Shown: piece by piece, positions 20,065 to 34,171 of the stretch
Numbering within the stretch: the first letter of the stretch is position 1
How the letters are laid out: every line of letters starts with the position of its first letter
Assembly (NCBI GenBank): GCA_038400315.1
Contig: CP151667.1
Location: 3,793,174-3,857,173, forward strand
Origin: Isosphaeraceae bacterium EP7
GTDB lineage: Bacteria > Planctomycetota > Planctomycetia > Isosphaerales > Isosphaeraceae
DNA: 64,000 nt
Direction of reading: 5' to 3'
The notes under the pieces: generated by a model
Databases searched by the model: none
Seen by the model: only the letters and a program-made list of their open reading frames with translations
What the model was told of the DNA's origin: nothing
Made by a program: the position numbers and the translations under genes

Positions 20065-20733
20065 GTGGGCACTGCGAGCGTCACCGACGGCTCGAACGAG
20101 GTCGTGGCGATCCTCGAACTGCTCCGCACGCTCGACCTGGCCGGGGCACTCGTGACGATCGGCGCCGCCGGCTGCCAGGTCGAGAACGCACGGATCATCC
20201 GCGAGCGGAAAGGGCACGATTTGCTGGCCGTGAAGGACAACCAGCCCGCGCTGCGGGCGACGGTCGAGGCGGTGTTCGATCGGGCGTGCGAGGCCAATTT
20301 CGAGGGGGAACGCTGCGACGGCCAGGCCTCGGTCGAGGACGGCCACAACCGGAATGAGGAACGTGACGTGAGCGTGGTCCGCGCCCCGGAGGACCTGCCT
20401 TCGGAGTGGCCGGACGTGGCGGCGGTGGTGCAGGTCAACGGCGAACGCGAGGTCGGCGGTGTTCGGACGACGACCGGCCACGACGACCTCAGCAGCGATC
20501 GGAGGACGGGGGCGGAGTTCGCCGGTTGGGTCCGGGAACACTGGGGGATCGAGACCGGCCTGCACTGGGTGCTCGACGTGGGGTTCCGCGAGGATCGCAG
20601 CCGGATCCGGGCGAAGCACGCCGGGGCGAACCTGGCGCTGATCCGTCGCGTGGCGGTACCGCTGCTGAGGCGTGCGCCGGGCTGAGGGAGTGGGGTGATG
20701 ACGCGCCTCAAGGCCGAATGGGATGACAACTCT
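20065..20733 (+). mobile_element. ISAs1-family transposase remnant
   Basis: The 206-codon frame (to the TGA at 20683-20685) matches the C-terminal half of ISAs1 transposases. It has TDGSNEV, VTIGAAGCQ, KDNQPALRATVE, the terminal motif HWGIETGLHWVLDV, and FREDRSRIRAKHAGANLALI. Family proteins are about 370 residues; the N-terminal half is absent. The catalytic Asp of the usual TIDAMGCQ motif is Gly here. Past the TGA the same frame resumes with RLKAEWDDN, the usual C-terminal sequence, and stops at 20733. It is truncated, catalytically dead and nonsense-interrupted. Inverted-repeat ends were not identified with confidence. Confidence 0.85.
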
Positions 20734-21800: not shown

Positions 21801-23084
21801 TCAGCCCCGGCCGGGCGTCGGCTCGTTGATGGTGATGTGGCCGACGAGGCGTTCGATGGCGTCGGCCGCGCGGTCCATGGGGCGGAAGTCGTCGGCGAAT
21901 TTGGCGGAGACGGCCCGGCAGTGGGCGGCGATCTCGGTGGATTCCAGCAGCGGCCGCAGCTCGCGGGCCACGGCAGGGCCGCGGAACTTGGCCGGCGGCA
22001 GCGATCGGGCGACGCCGAGCCTGCGCATCCGGGCGGCGTTGTCGAACTGGTCGTGGCCCAGCGGCATCACCAGTTGGGGCACGCCGGCGGCCATGCCCTG
22101 CGCCGCGGTGCCGATCCCGCCGTGGTGCACCAGGGCCGCGACCCGAGGGAGCAACTGGCTGAACGGGGCATAGTCGACGTGACGGACGCCGGGGGGGAGG
22201 TTTTCGGGGACCTGCTCGGCGTGTCGGGTGAGCAGCAGCCCCCGGCGGTTGAGCAGGGTGCAGGCCTCGACGGCGGCCTCGAAGAAAGGACGCCCGTGGA
22301 TGTTGGCCGAGCCGGGCGTGAACGCGATCGGCGGCGAGCCCGAGGCGAGGAAGTCGACCAGGTCGGGCGTCATGGGGGAGACCTCGCGCTCGTCGAAGAG
22401 CGGGAATCCGCAGAGCATGATCTTGGACGGCCAGTCGCGCTGGGGGGGGGCGTACCAGGCGGGGAAGAAGCCGAGCGCGAGGTCGGGCGAGCTGAGCCAG
22501 GTGCGGAAGACATCGCGCACCGGGGCCAGGCCCAGCTCGGCACGATAGGCATTCAGGCCCGGCTCGATATTCGGCGCGATGGCCTTGCTGAAGAGGAAGT
22601 CGAAGAACCGCCGACGGAACCAGATCGGCCACCATCGGGGGGTCTCGAAGCCCGGATAGACCGGGGGCTCCAGATTGCTGTGCAGGACGGCCGGCTGGAG
22701 GTGGACCGTGACCATGGGCATCCCGGTCGTCTCGGCGGCCAGCCGTGCGACCACGGCCAGGGTGCCGCCGACGACCACCGTCTCCCCGGGGACGTGCATC
22801 TGCTGGATGAGCGGCAAGGCCTGCCGGGCATGCTCCACGGCGAGTTTCGCGATGATGGGGAAGGAGCGCCTGGGGTGCCAGAGATCGGCGTCGCGCATCG
22901 TCTCCTGGAAGAGGCCGGGCTCCCCCAGCGGGATCGCGTCGATGCCGAGGCTGCCCATCAGCGGCATGAAATACTCGCTGATCAGGAACGTGACCCGATG
23001 CCCGCGAGATCGCAGGGTCCTGGCCAGCCCGAGGAACGGATGGACGTCGCCGTGGCTTCCGAACGGGACCAGCAGGGCATGCAT
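21801..23084 (-). CDS. GT1-family (UGT-like) glycosyltransferase
   Basis: 427 residues, GT-B fold. The N-terminal domain begins LLVPFGSHGDVHPFLGLA, the acceptor-side signature of MurG/UGT-type enzymes such as sterol or macrolide glycosyltransferases. The C-terminal nucleotide-sugar site reads HHGGIGTAAQGMAAGVPQLV, then MPLGHDQFDNAARM. It transfers a sugar from a UDP- or dTDP-sugar to a lipid or small-molecule acceptor; the acceptor is unknown. It is cytoplasmic and probably membrane-associated. It is a stand-alone gene on the minus strand, divergent from the LRR gene, and may belong with the glycan genes at 25-28.7 kb (inference). Confidence 0.88.
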   Translation of the reverse strand: MHALLVPFGSHGDVHPFLGLARTLRSRGHRVTFLISEYFMPLMGSLGIDAIPLGEPGLFQETMRDADLWHPRRSFPIIAKLAVEHARQALPLIQQMHVPGETVVVGGTLAVVARLAAETTGMPMVTVHLQPAVLHSNLEPPVYPGFETPRWWPIWFRRRFFDFLFSKAIAPNIEPGLNAYRAELGLAPVRDVFRTWLSSPDLALGFFPAWYAPPQRDWPSKIMLCGFPLFDEREVSPMTPDLVDFLASGSPPIAFTPGSANIHGRPFFEAAVEACTLLNRRGLLLTRHAEQVPENLPPGVRHVDYAPFSQLLPRVAALVHHGGIGTAAQGMAAGVPQLVMPLGHDQFDNAARMRRLGVARSLPPAKFRGPAVARELRPLLESTEIAAHCRAVSAKFADDFRPMDRAADAIERLVGHITINEPTPGRG

Positions 23085-24485: not shown

Positions 24486-24590
24486 TCCGCCTGGGCGGCG
24501 ACGTGGCCGTCGAGGAAGCGATATGTCGGTTGAGGAATCCGACCTGGTCGTCGGGCTCCTTGATCTTCGCATCCTGGGCGTCGACCTCGT
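24486..24590 (-). pseudogene. Displaced copy of the 28-residue coiled-coil repeat segment
   Basis: About 105 bp match 26388-26490 at roughly 90% identity, including the peptide AQDAK-IK and DDQVGFLN-HIA. A single-base deletion near 24520 shifts the frame. It is not expressed as part of any gene here; it is a duplication remnant about 1.9 kb from its source. Confidence 0.8.
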
Positions 24591-24842: not shown

Positions 24843-25022
24843 TGTCGTGTACGTTGGTCTGTCGAACTCAGTATCCCATTCTAAGCCCGCCCCTCTGCCC
24901 GGCCGGTGGCGGCCGGCGGTTCCAACGAAGTTCGGGGTACGAGGGGGGGGCGCGAGGGCGAGGGCTCGACGCGCCAGGGTGGGTACACCTCTGTCATTTC
25001 ATGTTATTCGAAGGTGTTGTCG

Positions 25023-25841
25023 ATGAAGATGAGCACCGCCAAGAGTCTGATCAAGGACATCATCTGGAAGGTCGACACGCCGCTGACGCGTGGCGCCGTC
25101 CGGGGGGCCTGCGCCACCGGCCTGCTGAGCCCCGTCTATGCGGCCTATTACAAGGTCGGCAGCCCGAGGGAGATCCTCGCCGGGCCGTTCGCCGGGATGA
25201 GCTATTTCCCGGTCTCGGCCGGCAGCGCCTGGCTGCCGAAGATCCTGGGCACCTACGAGAGTGAGCTGCACGGGCCGGTCGAGGAGGCCTGCCGCCAGTC
25301 GCCCGACCTCGTCGTCGACATCGGCTCGGCCGAGGGCTATTACGCGGTGGGGCTCGCCCGCATGCTCCCCGCCGTTCGCGTTTACTGCTTTGACACCGAC
25401 GCGCGGGCCAACACCTGCATGATGCGAAACGCGAGGATGAACGGGGTGGAAGGCCGGATCGTGCCGGGCGGTTTCTGCACCCCCGAACGGCTGGAGGCCC
25501 TGCTGGCGGTGGCCGAGTCGCCTTTGCTGATCTGCGACTGCGAAGGGGGCGAGACCGAGCTGCTCGACCTCGACCGGGCGCCTTCGCTGAGGCGGGCGAC
25601 GGTGCTCGTCGAGGTGCACGACTTCTTCGACAGCGACAAGATCGGCCGCCTGATCCGCGGGCGTTTCGCCGGGTCGCACGACATCGAGCGGGTGCCGATC
25701 GTGGCCCGGAAACCCGAGGAGATGCCGGCCGAATGCCTGGCCAAACTCACGGTTGCCGAGGCCCAGGCCGCCCTGTCCGAGGCACGTCCCCCGGCCAGCG
25801 GTTGGCTCGTCCTGAGGCCCAAGGGACGGGCGCAGGGCTGA
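25023..25841 (+). CDS. SAM-dependent methyltransferase, FkbM-like
   Basis: 272 residues. SAM-binding motif I is LVVDIGSAEGYYAVGLA at about 97-113, followed by an acidic motif (VYCFDTDARA) and LLICDCEGGETELL, the acid-rich motif seen in FkbM-type O-methyltransferases. It is probably a methyltransferase acting on a sugar or glycan. ATG 25023 is favoured because the conserved part starts soon after; the upstream open frame to 24906 is low-complexity. It converges with the methyltransferase/GT fusion gene, only 16 bp separating the two stops, and both probably serve surface-polysaccharide synthesis (inference). Confidence 0.8.
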   Translation: MKMSTAKSLIKDIIWKVDTPLTRGAVRGACATGLLSPVYAAYYKVGSPREILAGPFAGMSYFPVSAGSAWLPKILGTYESELHGPVEEACRQSPDLVVDIGSAEGYYAVGLARMLPAVRVYCFDTDARANTCMMRNARMNGVEGRIVPGGFCTPERLEALLAVAESPLLICDCEGGETELLDLDRAPSLRRATVLVEVHDFFDSDKIGRLIRGRFAGSHDIERVPIVARKPEEMPAECLAKLTVAEAQAALSEARPPASGWLVLRPKGRAQG

Positions 25842-25857: not shown

Positions 25858-28656
25858 TCAGGGGCGGAGCTTGCGCTGGATCTTGCGGGCTTTGGTGAGG
25901 GATTTCTTGGTCCAGGTGGAGAGGCGGGGGTAGCGGACGGAGAAGTGGCGGATCCGGCGGGCCAGGCCGATGGTGAGGGGGCCGAGGTCGGCGACCGGGG
26001 CGAGACGCTCCTGGGTGGCGTGGAGGCGTGCCCGGGTGTCGTCGAGCCGCGAGTGGGCCGAGTCGAGGCGGACGCGGGCGTGGATCAGGCCGGAGCGTGC
26101 CTCGTTGAGCCGCTCGAGCAGGCGGTCGCCGCGCGCCTCGGCGGCGACGACGCGGGCACGGGCGGCGGCCAGCTCGGCGACCGTGTCTTGCAGGCTGGAC
26201 GCGGTGGCCAGGCGGCCCTCGTGCTCGGCGGAGAGCGCGGCCTCGGTGCGGCGCAGGTGGCCTTCGAGGGCCGCCGAGTAGGCCTGGGACGCGTCGAGCC
26301 GGCCGGAGAGGGCCGTGGCGTGGGCCGTCGCGGCCTCGTAGTGCCTGGTCAGCTCGCGCGACTGGTCTTCCAGCGTGATGATCTTGCCCGCCTGGGCGGC
26401 GACGTGGCCGTCGAGGAAGGCGATATGTCCGTTCAAGAATCCGACCTGGTCGTCGAGCCCCTTGACCTTCGCGTCCTGGGCGGCGACGTGGCCGTTGAGC
26501 AGGGTGATGTGCCCGTTGAGGAAGACGGTCTCGTCGTCGAGCCCCTTGAGCCTGGCATCCTGGGCGGCGACGTGGCCGTTGAGCAGGGTGATGTGGCCGT
26601 TGAGGAATTCGACCTGGTCGTCGAGCCCCTTGATCCGCGCGTCTTGCGCGGTGACGTGGCCGCTGAGGAAGTCGAACTGGTGGCGGCCGCCTGGGGTGTA
26701 GTGGTCGGCGAATTGCTCGGAGAGGCGGCGGGCCAGGACGAATCCGTGGTCGGACCAGGGAGAGGGGGCGGGCGCCTCATTCAGGGCGTCGTCGATGGCC
26801 CCGAGGGTCCGGGCGAGGCCGACGCCCAGGAGGTCGGGGCGGTAATAGTGGTCGCGGAAGCGGGCATGCCGGTCGAGGGCGGCCTCGCGGTTGGCGGGGT
26901 CGAGCAGGCGGTCGACCTCGGCCCCGAACCCGGCGAGCGGGACGGGCTCGACGCCGACGTAAGCGTTGGGGTTCGCGGTGTCGAAGACGGCGAACGGCTT
27001 GCCGGCCAGCGCGGCCTCCAGCGCGACGGTCGACAGGGTGCCGACGACGGCGTCCGAGGCGCGGACGAGGGCGGGAGTATCCAGGCCACCGAAGAGGCAG
27101 GCGAACTCGTCGAGCACCTTGACGTTGGCCGGGAGCCCTTCGAGCATCGTGGCGTCGACGTCGTGAACCGGGTGGAGCTTGCAGAGGAAGAGGACGTCGG
27201 GGCGGGCGGAGGCGGCCTCGACGAGCGCGGGCAGGAATGCGGCGCCGGCGGCGTGCCTGGGCCAGTGTAGGTTCGTGGCCACCAGCACCGTCCGCCGATA
27301 GGCCCCGGCCCAGTCGCCCAGCAGGTCGGCCGCGCTGATGGCGTCGTCGCCATATGCGTCGAACTTGGCGCAGCCGGTCTCCAGGAACCGGGTCGGGCCG
27401 ACGAGTGCCTCGGTCACGGCCGAGCCGTCGGGGGCCCTGGTCTCGCGGAGGAAGGACTCGCGGCAGTCGGCCGACCAGGAGAGGACGTGGTCGCAGGCGA
27501 ACGCGACCGGCGTGTCGAAGTCGGTGTGGGGCCAGATCCCGTGCTGGAGCTGGAAAGTCCGGAAGCCCGAACCCTTCGCGGCCAGCACGAAGGCGGCGTT
27601 GAGCATGTGGCCGTCGTTGGCCGTCGACTCGGTCGCCACGATCAGCGCCCGGCGCGTGCCCGGCATCTCGGCCCAGTCCACGTCCCTGACCGAAGAGACC
27701 TCGACGACGCGGAGGCCGCGCGACTTGAGGTAGGCGAGCATCGCCCTGTGCCGCAGGTCCTCGATGCCGCGCAGGGCGCCCGAGCGGACGAGCACCGTGA
27801 CCGAGCCGCGGTCGAGGGCGTCCCAGTAGGGGCGGTAGTGGTGGAAGTCCTGATAGTGACCGATCAGGAAGCAGAGATGCGTCCCCGGCGCGACGGGGGA
27901 CTCGACGGCCGGCGGGATCAGGAGGATCGACGCGAAGGCCGAGGCCAGGGCGGCGCGGTCGACGGGCCCCGAGGGGGCGTCGGCCTTGCGGCGGAGGAGC
28001 ATGTAGAAGGGCTCGGTGCCGTGGGAGTCGCCGAACGGGTCGATCTTGCGCCAGAGATTCAGGGCGCGGCACGACTCGGTGTCGGGATAGTCCTGATGCC
28101 CGGCGATCTCGGCGACCCCGTCGTGGGGGACGACCTCGAAGCCGGCGGCGTCGAAGAGTCTGCGCCAGGTGCGCGGGGGGATGACGGTGGCGTGGTAGAG
28201 GTTGTCTCGGCTGGAGGGCCGGGTGCTGACGGAGACGAGCATCCAGCGGCCGGCCAGGTCGGCGAGGTTCGCCAGGGCGGCGGCCATGCCGGGGCGGCCG
28301 ATGTGCTCGAGCACGTCGAGGCAGGACGTCAGGTGTTGGGCGTCGCCGAGTTCCAGCCTGGAGGCGATCTCGGGGAGCAGTGCATGCGCCGGGGCGGGGT
28401 CGGCGCCGATGAGGTTGAAGGGGAGGACGCCCGCCTCGTCGTCGCCGCGCAGGTCGAGCGCCAGGCCCCGGAGGCCCAGGGGCCGGACTCGGCGGACGAG
28501 CTCGCCGTTACCCGACCCGACGTCGACGAGGCCGGCGCAGCCGAGCTCGGCGGCGAGGGCGGCCAGGCGTTCGTGGAAGCAGGCGCGGAACGACGTGGCA
28601 CCGGCGTCGTGGCCGAAGTAGTCGTGCGCGTACAGGCCTTCGTAATCGATGTCCAT
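25858..28656 (-). CDS. Methyltransferase / GT-B transferase / coiled-coil fusion protein
   Basis: 932 residues. About 1-230: class I methyltransferase with LVDVGSGNGELVRRV and a DVLEHIG motif. About 260-590: a GT-B-like domain resembling CDP-glycerol glycerophosphotransferases and related capsule enzymes, with FQLQHGIWPH, CKLHPVHD and DAVVGTLSTVALEAALAGKP. About 640-900: a long coiled coil with three 28-residue repeats (each with GLDD and FLNGHI), then Ala/Arg-rich heptads and a basic tail. It plausibly modifies and elongates a surface glycan, with the coiled coil acting as ruler or scaffold, as in some O-antigen chain-length enzymes (inference). ATG 28656 begins the conserved YEGLYAHDYFGHD; the frame is open to 29148. 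Confidence 0.8.
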   Translation of the reverse strand: MDIDYEGLYAHDYFGHDAGATSFRACFHERLAALAAELGCAGLVDVGSGNGELVRRVRPLGLRGLALDLRGDDEAGVLPFNLIGADPAPAHALLPEIASRLELGDAQHLTSCLDVLEHIGRPGMAAALANLADLAGRWMLVSVSTRPSSRDNLYHATVIPPRTWRRLFDAAGFEVVPHDGVAEIAGHQDYPDTESCRALNLWRKIDPFGDSHGTEPFYMLLRRKADAPSGPVDRAALASAFASILLIPPAVESPVAPGTHLCFLIGHYQDFHHYRPYWDALDRGSVTVLVRSGALRGIEDLRHRAMLAYLKSRGLRVVEVSSVRDVDWAEMPGTRRALIVATESTANDGHMLNAAFVLAAKGSGFRTFQLQHGIWPHTDFDTPVAFACDHVLSWSADCRESFLRETRAPDGSAVTEALVGPTRFLETGCAKFDAYGDDAISAADLLGDWAGAYRRTVLVATNLHWPRHAAGAAFLPALVEAASARPDVLFLCKLHPVHDVDATMLEGLPANVKVLDEFACLFGGLDTPALVRASDAVVGTLSTVALEAALAGKPFAVFDTANPNAYVGVEPVPLAGFGAEVDRLLDPANREAALDRHARFRDHYYRPDLLGVGLARTLGAIDDALNEAPAPSPWSDHGFVLARRLSEQFADHYTPGGRHQFDFLSGHVTAQDARIKGLDDQVEFLNGHITLLNGHVAAQDARLKGLDDETVFLNGHITLLNGHVAAQDAKVKGLDDQVGFLNGHIAFLDGHVAAQAGKIITLEDQSRELTRHYEAATAHATALSGRLDASQAYSAALEGHLRRTEAALSAEHEGRLATASSLQDTVAELAAARARVVAAEARGDRLLERLNEARSGLIHARVRLDSAHSRLDDTRARLHATQERLAPVADLGPLTIGLARRIRHFSVRYPRLSTWTKKSLTKARKIQRKLRP
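26398..26664. repeat. Three tandem 84-bp coding repeats
   Basis: Three direct 84-bp copies plus a partial fourth encode 28-residue (four-heptad) units of the coiled coil: HVAAQDARLKGLDD followed by xxxFLNGHITLLNG. The units are highly similar at the DNA level, so recent expansion or gene conversion is likely. Confidence 0.85.
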
Positions 28657-29179
28657 CGCTCGACCGCCCCTCGTCTGCGTCGCCGGGCGGACCCGGCCCA
28701 TGCTTCCTTGCCGACGCCCCTGGACCGCCATGTCGAGGGCCGACTCCGTCTTCCCGGCCCCGGCTCCCGGCCGCCGCATCCGGCACGATGCGGCGTGAGC
28801 CTCTGGCGTTGGGCCGTCGTCGCGATCGTCGGGTGAGCGACGCTCTTGCAGCTTGCAGCGTGCCTCCCGTCCCGGGGCGCGCGCCGGTTTTGAGGGGCGC
28901 GGGACCTGATTCGGCCGGCCGGCTTGCGGGCGGGATTTCCCCTGGCCGCGGGCCGTCCGGTTTCGGCGAGTGAGCAGATACCAGATCGACGGCGAGGGGT
29001 CCACCCGAATCGAGGGCCGGGGGGCCCCGGCGGTGCCGGGTTGAATCCGACCCGGAGGGCCCCGACAATGGGGCGAACGCGGCCGATTTCGGGCACATTC
29101 CGCGCCCCTCAAGGGGCGTCCGGCCCGACTCCCCCCGCCACCGCCCACATTCCACCCAACGAGATCGCAAGGATCCTCT
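28657..29179. other. Divergent intergenic region
   Basis: 523 bp of very GC-rich DNA between the methyltransferase fusion gene and the large cytochrome fusion gene. It must contain both promoters. Short GC-rich inverted repeats occur around 29015-29060, but no consensus boxes were seen. Confidence 0.5.
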
Positions 29180-32100
29180 ATGGACGTCCAACGTCGAACA
29201 CGGCCGCGCCCTGGCCGCGCCGGCTCGTTCCTGATATCGGGCCTGACACTCGTCGGCCTGGCCCTCGCGGCCGGGTCGCACGCGTCGGCGGCCCCCCCCG
29301 CGCTCGCGGTTCAGAAGGGAGACCACATCGCCTTCATCGGCAACACCGTGGTCGACCGGATGCAGCACGACGGCTGGCTGGAGACGCTGCTCCAGGCCCG
29401 GTTCCCCGGCGATGAGCTGGTCATCCGCAACATGGGCTTCTCGGCCGACGAGCTGACCATCCGACTGCGGTCGAAGGACTTCGGCACGCCCGACGAGTGG
29501 CTGGCCCGCACCAAGTCCGACGTGGTCTTCGCCTTCTTCGGCTCGAACGAAGCGTACGGCGACCCGGCGACGTATCGCCAGGATCTCGACGCCTTCGTCA
29601 AGCATACGCTCGCCCAGGCGTATGCCGGGAAGGGGGCGCCGCGGCTGGTCCTGTTCTCGCCCATCGCGCACGAGGGGGCCAAGGGCCGGCCGCTGCCCGA
29701 CGGCGCGGCGCACAATGCCCTGCTGGAGAAGGTGACCGCCGCGACGGCCGAAGTGGCCAAGGCCAACGGCGTCGCGTATGTCGACCTGTATCACCCGTCG
29801 CTCAAGCTGTTCGCCGAGTCGGCCGAGCCGCTGACGATCAACGGGATCCACCCCAATGAGGAGGGGAACCGGCAACTGGCGAAGGTCATCGACGGCGCCC
29901 TCTTCGGCGAGCCCGCCCCGGCGGTCGACGCCAAGGCGCTGGACGCGATCAGGGCGGCGGTCCTGGAGAAGAACCACTACTGGTTCAACCGCTACCGGGT
30001 GGTCGACGGCTACTCGACCTACGGCGGCCGGGCCGACCTGAAGTTCACCGACGGCCAGACCAATCGCGTCGTCATGGACCGCGAGCTGGAAGTGCTCGAC
30101 CTGATGACGGCCAACCGCGACAAGGCGGTCTGGGCGGCGGCCAACGGCAAGACGCTGGCCGTCGACGACTCGAACACGCCGCCGTTCATCCCGGTGAAGA
30201 CCAACAAGCCGGGCGAAGGCCCCAACGGCGAGCACATCTTCCTGGATGGCGACGCGGCCATCGGCAAGATGACGGTTGGCAAAGACTTCAACATCAACCT
30301 GTTCGCCTCGGAGAAGCAGTTCCCCGACCTGGCCAAGCCGGTGCAGATGTCGTTCGACCCCGCCGGCCGCCTGTGGGTGGCCGTCTGGCCGACGTACCCT
30401 CACTGGAAGCCCAAGGAGTCGATGAATGACAAGATCATCATCCTTGAGGACACCGACGGCGACGGCCGGGCCGACAAGCAGACGACCTTCGCCGACGGGC
30501 TGCATTGCCCCACCGGCTTCGAGTTCGTCCCCGGCGGCGTGCTGGTGGCCCAGCAGCCCGACCTGATGCTGCTGAAGGACACGAACGGCGACGACAAGGC
30601 CGACGTCCGGACCCGCGTGCTGCACGGGCTCGACTCGGCAGACACCCACCACGCGGCCAACAGCTTCAGGCTCGACCCGGGCGGGTCGGTCTACTTCCAG
30701 GAGGGGACCTTCCACCACACCCAGGTCGAGACCCCCTACGGCCCGCCCGTCCGCTGCGTCAATGCGGGTGTTTATCGCTATGAGCCCCGCACCCAGAAGT
30801 TCGAGGTCTACGTCTCCTACGGGTTCGCCAACCCCCACGGGCACTCGTTCGACCGCTGGGGCCAGGACTTCATCACCGACGGCACCGGCGCGGTGAACTA
30901 CTTCGCCGCGGCCTTCTCGGGGCACGTCGACTATCCCCGCAAGCACCCCGGTATGAAGCCATTCTTCCCCCAGCGCACGCGGCCCTGCCCGGGCACCGAG
31001 ATCGTCTCCAGCAAGCACTTCCCCGACGAGATGCAGGGCAACTACCTGGTCGGCAACGTGATCGGGTTCCAGGGGATCTTGAACTACAAGATGCGCGACG
31101 AGGAGTCGGGCTTCGGCGCCGAGGAGGTCGAGCCGATCGTCTCGTCGAGCGACCCGAACTTCCGCCCGTCCGACCTGGAGATGGGCCCCGACGGGGCGCT
31201 CTACTTCCTGGACTGGCAGAACCCGATCATCGGCCACATGCAGCACAACCTCCGCGACCCGGGCCGCGACCGGATTCACGGCCGGATCTACCGGGTGACG
31301 GCCAAGGGACGCCCGCTGTCCATCAGCCCGAAGATCGCCGGCGAGCCGCTGCCGAAGCTGTTCGACCTGCTGAAGGAGACCGAAGACCGGGTCCGCTACC
31401 GGGTGAAGCTGGAGATCGGCGACCGCAAGACCGAGGACGTGCTGGCCGCGCTCGGGCCGTGGGTCGCGGGCCTGGACAAGGCCGACCCCGACTACGAGCA
31501 CAACCTGCTGGAGGCCCTCTGGGTCAAGCAGAACCACGACTCGGTGGATGTTGACCTGTTGAAGCAGCTGCTGGCGGCCCGCGACTACCGGGCCCGCGCC
31601 GCGGCCACGCGCGTGCTCTGCTACTGGCGCGACCGCGTGCCGGGCGCCCTGGGCCTGCTGAAGACCCTGGCCGCCGATGCCTACCCGAGGGTGAGGCTGG
31701 AAGCCGTGCGGGCCGCGAGCTTCTTCACCTCGCCCGAGGCGATCGAGGTGGCCTTGATCTCGGCCGAGCAGCCGTCGGATTATTACCTCGATTACGTCCG
31801 CGCCGAGACCCTCAAGACGCTGGAGCCCTACTGGCGCAAGGCGCTCGCCGAAGGCCGGCCGGTCGAGTTCAGCAGCGAGGCGGGGGCCCGGTTCTTCCTG
31901 AAGGGAGTGGGCACCGACGACCTCCTGAAGATGAAGCGATCGGTGGCCGTCGCCTCCGAGATCCTGCTGAGAGGCGGGGTCGACACGGCAACCCGCGGGC
32001 AGGCTCTGGCCGACCTGGCGAAGGCCCGTGGAGTGAGCCGCGTCCATGCGTTGATCGAGTCATTGAAGGCCCGCGACGGCCTGGAGCCGAACGCCAGGTC

Positions 32101-34171
32101 GGCCAGCCTGGCCGAGCTGGCCGGGCTGCTGACCGACGTGCCGCAGGCCGATCTGGCTGGCGTGCGCAAGGATCTTGAAGGGCTGGCGACGGGCGCCGCC
32201 CGCCCCGACACGCGTCAGCTCGGCTTCGCCGCGCTGGTCGACGCCGATGGCTCGGCCGAGGCGGCCTGGACGCTGGCGACGAAGTCGGCGTCCGCGCTCC
32301 GCGAGTTTCTCGCCGCGATCCCCCTGGTGCGTGACGCCAAGGTGCGCGAGTCGCTCTACCCGCGAGTCGAGGGGCTCTTGAAGGCCCTGCCCGCCCCCTT
32401 GGCCTCGACGAACGCCGGCAAGGGAGTCGTCGGTCGATATGTCCGGGTCGAGCTTCCGGGGCCGCGTCGGACCCTGACGCTGGCCGAGGTCGAAGTGATC
32501 AGCGACGGCCGGAACGTCGCGCGATCGGGCAAGGCGAGCCAGAAGAACACGGCCAACGGCGGCGTGGCCGCCCGCGCGATCGACGGCAAGACGTCCGGTG
32601 CCTACAACGACAACGGCCAGACGCACTCCGAGGAGGGGACTGACTCCCCCTGGTGGGAGGTCGACCTGGGCGCGGACGTGCCGATCGACTCGATCGTCAT
32701 CCACAACCGCGTGGATGGGGAACTCGGCCGGCGGCTACTCGGGTACACGCTCAAGGTGCTCGACTCAGGGCGCAAGCTCGCCTTCGAGAAGGCGGGCCAG
32801 CCGGCCCCCGAGCCGAAGGCGACCCTGACCCTGGAGGGGAATGCCGGAGACGTGGTGAGACGGGCCGCGATGCTGGCCCTGACGTCAATCCCTGGTCATG
32901 AGGAGCGGACCTTCCGTTCGCTCTCCGCGCTGGCCCGAGCCGGGGTCGACCGCGACGCCGCCGTGCTGGCGCTCGGCCGTCTGCCCAAGGCGACCTGGCC
33001 GAAGGACGAGGCGGGCCCGCTGCTCGACTCGCTGGCAGCCGCCCTGGCGGCCCTGCCCGCCGCCGACAGGACCACGCCGCAGGCCCTGGAAGCCCTGCAA
33101 CTGGGCGACCAGCTCACGGGCCTGCTGCCCAAGGACGCCGCCCGCGCCGCCCGAGCCAGGCTGGGCGCGCTGGGGGTGCGGATCATCAAGATCGGCACTG
33201 TCTACGAGCAGATGCGGTACGACCTGGATACCATCGCGGTGCAGGCCGGCAAGCCGGTGCAGATCGTCTTCGCCAACATCGACGCCATGCCGCACAACTT
33301 CGTCGTCGTGCAGCCCGGCTCGCTGGAAACCGTCGGCCAGCTGGGCGAGGCGCAGGCCACCCAGCCCGATGCCGTCGCCCGGCAATATGTCCCCGTCAGC
33401 GACAAGATCCTGATCTCCAGCCGGATGATCCAGCAGGGAGAGTCGCAGAAGCTCGACTTCAAGGCGCCCGAGACGCCCGGCGTCTATCCGTACGTCTGCA
33501 CCTATCCGGGCCACTGGCGGCGGATGTTCGGCGCGATGCGGGTGGTGGAGAACCTGGATGACTACCTCGCCGACCCCGAGGGCTACCTGGCCGCCAACCC
33601 CCTGGCGGTGAAGGATGAGCTGCTGAAGCTGAGCACGACCCGCAAGGAGTGGACCTATGAGGAGCTGGCCGCGGCGGTGACCCCGGTCGCGCACGGCCGT
33701 TCGTTCACGGTGGCCAAGCAGGTCTTCCGCAAGTCGAGCTGCGTGTCATGCCACCAGCTTGGCGGCGAAGGGGTGCCCATCGGCCCCGACCTGACCAAGC
33801 TCGATGCCAAGCTGACGCCTGCCGACCTGCTCAAGAGCATGCTGGAGCCCTCGGCCAAGATCGACGACGCGTATGCCCAGTTCCTCTTCGACACCGAGTC
33901 GGGCCAACTCGTCAGCGGCCTGGTCGTCGAGGAGACCGCCGACGCGTTCAAGGTCGTCGAGAACCCGCTGGCCAAGGCGACCCCCCTGGTCGTCAAGAAG
34001 TCGGACGTGGTGGCACGCAAGCGGCTCAACACGTCGATCATGCCCAAGGGGCTGCTCGACACACTGAACCGCGAGGAGATCCTCGACCTGATCGCCTACA
34101 TCGTGGCCAAGGGCGACAAGGCCCACCCGCTCTTCAAGGGGGGCCACGAGGGCCACGGCAACGCCCACTGA
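29180..34171 (+). CDS. SGNH hydrolase / PVC dehydrogenase / HEAT / F5-8C / cupredoxin / cytochrome c fusion
   Basis: 1663 residues, exported (signal segment about 17-38). About 45-255: SGNH-like hydrolase (FIGNTVVDR, FFGSNEAYGD, NGIHPNEEGN). About 355-720: six-bladed dehydrogenase domain (DTDGDGRADK, DTNGDDKADV, GPDGALYFLDWQNP). About 730-1080: HEAT-like helices. About 1086-1217: discoidin/F5-8 type C domain. About 1335-1460: plastocyanin/azurin-like domain with copper ligands His (MPHNF, about 1371) and Cys-His-Met (YVCTYPGHWRRMFG, about 1438-1450). The C-terminus is a haem-binding domain with CVSCH at about 1519. It is probably a periplasmic oxidoreductase acting on carbohydrate, passing electrons via copper and haem; the substrate is unknown. 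AAGGA precedes ATG 29180. Confidence 0.88.
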   Translation: MDVQRRTRPRPGRAGSFLISGLTLVGLALAAGSHASAAPPALAVQKGDHIAFIGNTVVDRMQHDGWLETLLQARFPGDELVIRNMGFSADELTIRLRSKDFGTPDEWLARTKSDVVFAFFGSNEAYGDPATYRQDLDAFVKHTLAQAYAGKGAPRLVLFSPIAHEGAKGRPLPDGAAHNALLEKVTAATAEVAKANGVAYVDLYHPSLKLFAESAEPLTINGIHPNEEGNRQLAKVIDGALFGEPAPAVDAKALDAIRAAVLEKNHYWFNRYRVVDGYSTYGGRADLKFTDGQTNRVVMDRELEVLDLMTANRDKAVWAAANGKTLAVDDSNTPPFIPVKTNKPGEGPNGEHIFLDGDAAIGKMTVGKDFNINLFASEKQFPDLAKPVQMSFDPAGRLWVAVWPTYPHWKPKESMNDKIIILEDTDGDGRADKQTTFADGLHCPTGFEFVPGGVLVAQQPDLMLLKDTNGDDKADVRTRVLHGLDSADTHHAANSFRLDPGGSVYFQEGTFHHTQVETPYGPPVRCVNAGVYRYEPRTQKFEVYVSYGFANPHGHSFDRWGQDFITDGTGAVNYFAAAFSGHVDYPRKHPGMKPFFPQRTRPCPGTEIVSSKHFPDEMQGNYLVGNVIGFQGILNYKMRDEESGFGAEEVEPIVSSSDPNFRPSDLEMGPDGALYFLDWQNPIIGHMQHNLRDPGRDRIHGRIYRVTAKGRPLSISPKIAGEPLPKLFDLLKETEDRVRYRVKLEIGDRKTEDVLAALGPWVAGLDKADPDYEHNLLEALWVKQNHDSVDVDLLKQLLAARDYRARAAATRVLCYWRDRVPGALGLLKTLAADAYPRVRLEAVRAASFFTSPEAIEVALISAEQPSDYYLDYVRAETLKTLEPYWRKALAEGRPVEFSSEAGARFFLKGVGTDDLLKMKRSVAVASEILLRGGVDTATRGQALADLAKARGVSRVHALIESLKARDGLEPNARSASLAELAGLLTDVPQADLAGVRKDLEGLATGAARPDTRQLGFAALVDADGSAEAAWTLATKSASALREFLAAIPLVRDAKVRESLYPRVEGLLKALPAPLASTNAGKGVVGRYVRVELPGPRRTLTLAEVEVISDGRNVARSGKASQKNTANGGVAARAIDGKTSGAYNDNGQTHSEEGTDSPWWEVDLGADVPIDSIVIHNRVDGELGRRLLGYTLKVLDSGRKLAFEKAGQPAPEPKATLTLEGNAGDVVRRAAMLALTSIPGHEERTFRSLSALARAGVDRDAAVLALGRLPKATWPKDEAGPLLDSLAAALAALPAADRTTPQALEALQLGDQLTGLLPKDAARAARARLGALGVRIIKIGTVYEQMRYDLDTIAVQAGKPVQIVFANIDAMPHNFVVVQPGSLETVGQLGEAQATQPDAVARQYVPVSDKILISSRMIQQGESQKLDFKAPETPGVYPYVCTYPGHWRRMFGAMRVVENLDDYLADPEGYLAANPLAVKDELLKLSTTRKEWTYEELAAAVTPVAHGRSFTVAKQVFRKSSCVSCHQLGGEGVPIGPDLTKLDAKLTPADLLKSMLEPSAKIDDAYAQFLFDTESGQLVSGLVVEETADAFKVVENPLAKATPLVVKKSDVVARKRLNTSIMPKGLLDTLNREEILDLIAYIVAKGDKAHPLFKGGHEGHGNAH

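Follow-up and report, generated by a model that had tools for sequence, protein, structure and literature searches.

A planctomycete protein joining a methyltransferase, a GT-B-like domain and a long predicted coiled coil with 84-bp repeats

The window, a stretch of 64,000 nucleotides from Isosphaeraceae bacterium EP7, contains on its minus strand a gene (25858..28656) that encodes a 932-residue protein from an ATG at 28656. The open reading frame shows a coding-type codon composition with a GC3 of 0.91. The frame is open upstream as far as a GTG at 29148; the exact start of the protein is unproven because homology to its only strong homologue, L018, starts only near residue 36. The gene lies on the chromosome and is present in one copy in the 7.2-Mb source genome. 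Its product is ordered as a methyltransferase domain, a GT-B-type transferase domain, a coiled coil and a basic tail, with the coil C-terminal to both enzyme domains. The initial annotation had placed a methyltransferase, a GT-B transferase and a long coiled coil in one protein; matches to Methyltransf_23 and NF046086 and a heptad test agree with this, the GT-B assignment coming from sequence only.

The gene converges on an FkbM-like methyltransferase gene (24906..25841, plus strand; NCBIfam fkbM_fam, E=4.5e-7, below cut-off), and the two stop codons are 16 bases apart. Other neighbours encode an EryCIII/UDPGT-like glycosyltransferase (21801-23084, minus strand), a leucine-rich repeat protein, a transposase fragment with a DDE transposase match (20065-20685, plus strand) and a 1663-residue protein combining a GDSL hydrolase, DUF7133, HEAT repeats, F5/8-type C, cupredoxin and cytochrome c domains (29180-34171, plus strand). 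Neither a recognised polymerase nor an ABC exporter was present among the neighbouring genes scanned, and no glycan cluster was found around the gene. Rfam elements were absent between positions 20 and 30 kb in the window, and scans for promoters and terminators gave no useful signal. A glycan cluster does occur elsewhere in the same genome (G000), at about 6.2-32 kb of the 70-kb contig C2 (L099, L100), a contig that is probably a plasmid; it contains an ABC-2 permease, a Wzt_C ATPase, several glycosyltransferases, an O-antigen-ligase-like protein and a formyltransferase.

The N-terminal SAM-dependent methyltransferase domain spans residues about 1-225 (27982..28656, minus strand) and was delimited by its Methyltransf_23 match and by alignment to L018. 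The Pfam match covers residues 25-176 with E=1.3e-5 and 25.4 bits, below the gathering cut-off of 27. The domain retains the SAM-binding glycine motif LVDVGSGNG, an acidic ALDLR and an LDVLEHI motif, and these motifs make its membership of the wider class I SAM methyltransferase superfamily likely despite the sub-cut-off score.

The GT-B-type transferase domain follows at residues about 231-630 (26767..27966, minus strand) and contains the motifs QLQHGIWPH, KLHPVHD and STVALEAALAGKPFA. A Pfam scan of this region gave no match. The NCBIfam model NF046086 (BFO_1060 glycosyltransferase) matched with E=3.5e-7 and 29.7 bits, compared to a cut-off of 200, and Capsule_synth (PF05159) was absent from the matches listed for the protein; against the homologue L018, Capsule_synth gave E=0.009 and 15.9 bits with a gathering cut-off of 20. 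In both of these families the nucleotide-binding half carries HP and STxxLEA motifs that are shared with our domain, although the domain scores under the curated cut-offs, and by these scores it is only a distant relative of the BFO_1060 glycosyltransferases. It is 40% identical to the corresponding domain of the homologue in genome G426, which belongs to another planctomycete family, and the HP, STxxLEA and QHG motifs are kept between the two families. When a profile built from these two sequences was compared by hhalign to two other planctomycete glycosyltransferase sets, whose members match DUF6716, Epimerase_2 and Capsule_synth, the probability was 97-98% over about 250 columns. Since all of these matches are at superfamily level, the assignment to a GT-B-type transferase holds at that level. 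An AlphaFold model of residues 231-645, made without an alignment, had a pLDDT of 44 and was unusable, so the fold is read from the primary structure; Foldseek matches of this model were discarded as meaningless. A PDB sequence search with the whole protein returned fibrous coils only, and one with the two-row GT profile returned no matches.

The coiled-coil stalk was located by the heptad test and by single-sequence AlphaFold at residues about 656-884 (26005..26691, minus strand). Among the heptad a and d positions of residues 655-765, 81% are I, L, M, V or F, compared to 31% overall, and none of 2000 shuffles reached as high a value. The model of residues 640-932 contains an unbroken helix of 229 residues (about 656-884) with a pLDDT mostly of 81-93; as a single continuous helix with a rise of 0.1485 nm per residue, the stalk would be about 34 nm long. 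Matches to SMC, SlyX and tape-measure proteins were set aside as ordinary coiled-coil cross-matches.

Within the stalk lies a tandem array with a period of 84 bp (3.4 copies, 82% matches, score 367). On the minus strand, 28-residue units of four heptads each begin with unit 1 (residues 666-693; 26578..26661) and continue with unit 2 (residues 694-721; 26494..26577) and unit 3 (residues 722-749; 26410..26493). A degenerate unit 4 (residues 750-777; 26326..26409) resembles them in its first part only and has 51-58% DNA identity to them. The array described in the initial annotation is thus real, but the near-identity claimed for its units is not: units 1-3 are alike at 67-71 of 84 bases (80-85% identity) and at 20-23 of 28 residues (71-82% identity), and their longest common exact runs are 18-24 bases. 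A detached and frameshifted remnant of the repeat (24490..24585, minus strand), which matches part of the array at 91% identity over 97 bp, is located outside the gene, 1.7 kb from the array and between the leucine-rich repeat gene and the methyltransferase gene. Its sequence suggests a past rearrangement of the array or of a second copy. No second allele of the gene was found in the collections searched.

A search of several hundred planctomycete genomes returned one strong homologue, L018:763-3450, in a genome (G426) of another family of the same class; no relatives were detected in the genome contig collection, viral contigs, plasmids or phages. The homologue is 35% identical over residues 36-628 and is composed of methyltransferase-like and GT domains followed by a second methyltransferase (Methyltransf_24, E=6.9e-9), without a coil. 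Neither the glycine motif nor the acidic residue nor the DVLEHI motif survives in its N-terminal methyltransferase, and the GT domain looks intact; one methyltransferase has apparently been replaced by another. The genes around it, judged by eye from their translations, include membrane glycosyltransferase-like genes, a GT4-like gene and a coiled-coil protein, and a DUF4214 gene was confirmed. As the methyltransferase-GT pair is shared by the two proteins, we take it as the conserved core. The coil and tail are specific to the lineage of the window protein, the homologue having a second methyltransferase instead, and the coil is most simply explained as an addition in that lineage.

The protein ends in a basic tail at residues about 885-932 (25861..26004, minus strand), a LGPxxxGxARRxRxxSxRxPRL module searched for with profile A4; the last 55 residues define it, with the consensus LGPxxxGxARRLRxxSxRxPRL. 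In the AlphaFold model it forms two short helices after the coil. The tail has a net charge of +13; in amphipathicity its last helix exceeds 97% of shuffles (shuffle fraction 0.026), and the first helix is not significantly amphipathic (shuffle fraction 0.34). Because amphipathicity varies, we put forward membrane binding by the tail just as a proposal. The profile matched 16 of the 45 genomes of the family at E<=0.01 and is nearly confined to it: at E<=1e-4, one outside genome was matched among the 248 of the class.

In the proteins read, the tail forms the C terminus of methyltransferases that fall into at least two types, FkbM (PF05050) and Methyltransf_11; a Pfam scan of six tail-bearing proteins left one without a match. 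These siblings share the tail with the window protein and many also have a coil before it, but they are without the GT domain, belong to other methyltransferase families and have shorter coils. The stretch before the tail is nearly absent in L071 and extends to long coils in others, and several siblings have little or no coil. Three genomes of one genus (G030, G482 and G017) encode orthologous FkbM methyltransferases with the same tail (L064, L065 and L067). One of the three has exactly one additional heptad in its coil: the 89%-identical orthologues are set apart there by seven residues, and the extra heptad is a copy of an IDGxR heptad. The coil of another tail-bearing FkbM methyltransferase (L072:1352-1487, genome G014) contains a 42-bp tandem repeat of 3.2 copies at 96%; no close orthologue of it was found within its genus. 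The one-heptad indel and the 42-bp repeat therefore indicate that coil length changes in heptad steps in the tail-bearing set. It is these sibling sequences, and not the window gene itself, that best support a changeable coil length. No glycan cluster was common to five tail-gene neighbourhoods; by eye, GT-like or ABC-transporter-like genes were close by in two of the five.

Coiled-coil rulers have been described in a few O-antigen systems of proteobacteria; how planctomycetes assemble their surface glycans is poorly known. In the described rulers, polymerase and terminator are located at opposite ends of the coil, either in one chain (WbbB, O7 ORF6) or in two (WbdD with WbdA) (PMC11231755). 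WbdD of E. coli O9a/O8, a methyltransferase-kinase chain terminator with a coiled-coil ruler, shares with our protein an N-terminal methyltransferase, a second enzyme domain and a long coil, and its C-terminal helical segment, proposed to dock, is resembled by the basic helical C terminus here. The second domain is a kinase in WbdD and GT-B-like in our protein, and no kinase was found. In WbdD the catalytic domains stand about 20 nm off the membrane, compared to about 34 nm predicted for the present coil (PMC5082667). Unlike WbdD, the window protein is without a linked polymerase or exporter and its closest homologue has no coil. The initial annotation had likened the protein to O-antigen chain terminators; the broad plan does resemble WbdD, but here the coil follows both the methyltransferase and the GT. 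The union of all parts in one chain, which it pointed out, already exists in two K. pneumoniae proteins, WbbB of O12 and ORF6 of O7, where termination enzymes, GT modules and a coil occupy a single polypeptide. The polymerase GTs of these two are near the C terminus, far from the N-terminal terminator, whereas nothing enzymatic lies beyond the coil of our protein (PMC11231755). WsaE of the Geobacillus stearothermophilus S-layer glycan is another methyltransferase-GT fusion capping a glycan, with an N-terminal methyltransferase fused to GT domains and methylation as the cap; it differs in having two GT domains and in being encoded in a slg cluster adjoining wzm/wzt, and the passages on it drawn on here mention no coil (PMC2943079). 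The heptad test and AlphaFold place in our protein a long coil after the methyltransferase domain, as in WbdD and WbbB. A counterpart of the polymerase at the far end of their coils was found neither in the chain, where the GT lies beside the methyltransferase, nor among the neighbours scanned, though an unlinked partner may exist. The architecture is uncommon, and we regard it as a variant of the WbdD/WbbB-type layout and not as a separate category.

The reading that we favour, and that we judge about as likely as not, is a glycan-tailoring head, formed by the methyltransferase and GT domains, that an oligomeric coiled-coil spacer holds away from a docking site. Such a protein would be cytoplasmic and docked to the membrane or to a complex; its GT-B domain would transfer either a sugar or a sugar-phosphate, and methylation of the product or the acceptor would fall to the methyltransferase beside it. 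We infer these activities and substrates, as we do the oligomerisation, docking and spacing: the chains would oligomerise via the coil, which would keep the pair of enzyme domains some 34 nm away from the site where the basic tail docks and would act as a spacer altered in length in heptad steps. As other methyltransferases of the family carry the tail too, it most probably attaches to the membrane or to a shared partner in glycan assembly. In favour of this reading are the methyltransferase and GT signals with the retained SAM motifs, conservation of the methyltransferase-GT pair across planctomycete families, the GT-like genes near L018, the coil, the shared tail with its charge and amphipathic last helix, and the one-heptad difference between orthologues; the methyltransferase and GT scores below curated cut-offs, the lack of a GT-B structure, the first tail helix without significant amphipathicity and the lack of a glycan cluster count against it. 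Because the closest homologue has no coil, the coil could also have arisen recently and make no difference to function. The likelihoods given here and below are our judgements and overlap in part; the exact chemistry of the GT domain is an independent question.

A true chain terminator, in which the methyltransferase, alone or together with the GT, caps a growing glycan and the coil sets chain length as in WbdD, with the 84-bp repeats tuning it, seems unlikely to us. The plan of N-terminal catalytic modules, extended coil and C-terminal membrane or recruitment region is that of WbdD (PMC11231755; PMC5082667), the repeats amount to whole heptads, and the genome does encode a Wzt that has the C-terminal carbohydrate-binding domain required by such systems. 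That Wzt is unlinked to the gene, however, its locus being on the probable plasmid C2, and the absence of a kinase, the coil-less closest homologue and the several tail-bearing methyltransferases with little or no coil also speak against measurement of a chain. The initial annotation had set the coil as a ruler between a polymerase and a terminator, a reading that is only partly supported, both enzyme domains lying on one side and no polymerase or exporter being adjacent. With both enzymes at the same stalk end, a ruler role is possible but unproven; the tail could recruit a separate membrane-proximal polymerase.

The same variation in the coil can be read differently. We would assign a rather low probability to the coil being mainly an oligomerisation scaffold that multimerises the enzymes and binds partners, its length being neutral and drifting by duplication. 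The wide range of coil lengths among tail-bearing siblings, the coil-less homologue, and the diverged repeats with a detached remnant nearby would all fit such drift, but the repeats strictly keep the heptad frame and hydrophobic a and d positions; the integrity of the helix appears to be selected for this reason, and selection on its length may be absent. It is also improbable, in our estimate, that the GT-like domain has no activity or is a different enzyme of the superfamily, such as a polyol-phosphate transferase or an epimerase-like protein. Its matches are at superfamily level, some of them to sequences that also match Epimerase_2, it has no confident fold, and domain decay does occur in this methyltransferase-GT family, as the N-terminal methyltransferase of L018 has lost its motifs. 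On the other side are the HP, STxxLEA and QHG motifs conserved between the two families and the fact that the best-scoring named family (NF046086) is a glycosyltransferase.

Beyond the single protein, we tentatively suggest, while doubting it as a whole, that the family has modular glycan-tailoring methyltransferases with one shared C-terminal docking tail and heptad-quantised coiled-coil spacers of differing length. Repeat duplication would make the spacer longer or shorter, each enzyme would be set at a particular distance from an assembly site that they share, and the window protein, with the longest coil seen plus a GT-B domain, would be one of the set. If this is true, different methyltransferases with the same tail and differing coils, of which one contains 84-bp tandem repeats and another 42-bp ones, would offer a natural range of lengths with which to ask if the coil determines product length or serves only as a tether. 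The interest lies more in the tail common to these proteins and in coils that change by heptads than in the one protein itself.

In two further genomes, GT-B-like proteins were observed that have a terminal coiled coil as well (L045 in G766 and L046 in G778). L045 ends in a basic tail, and the combination of GT, coil and basic tail therefore recurs outside the family.
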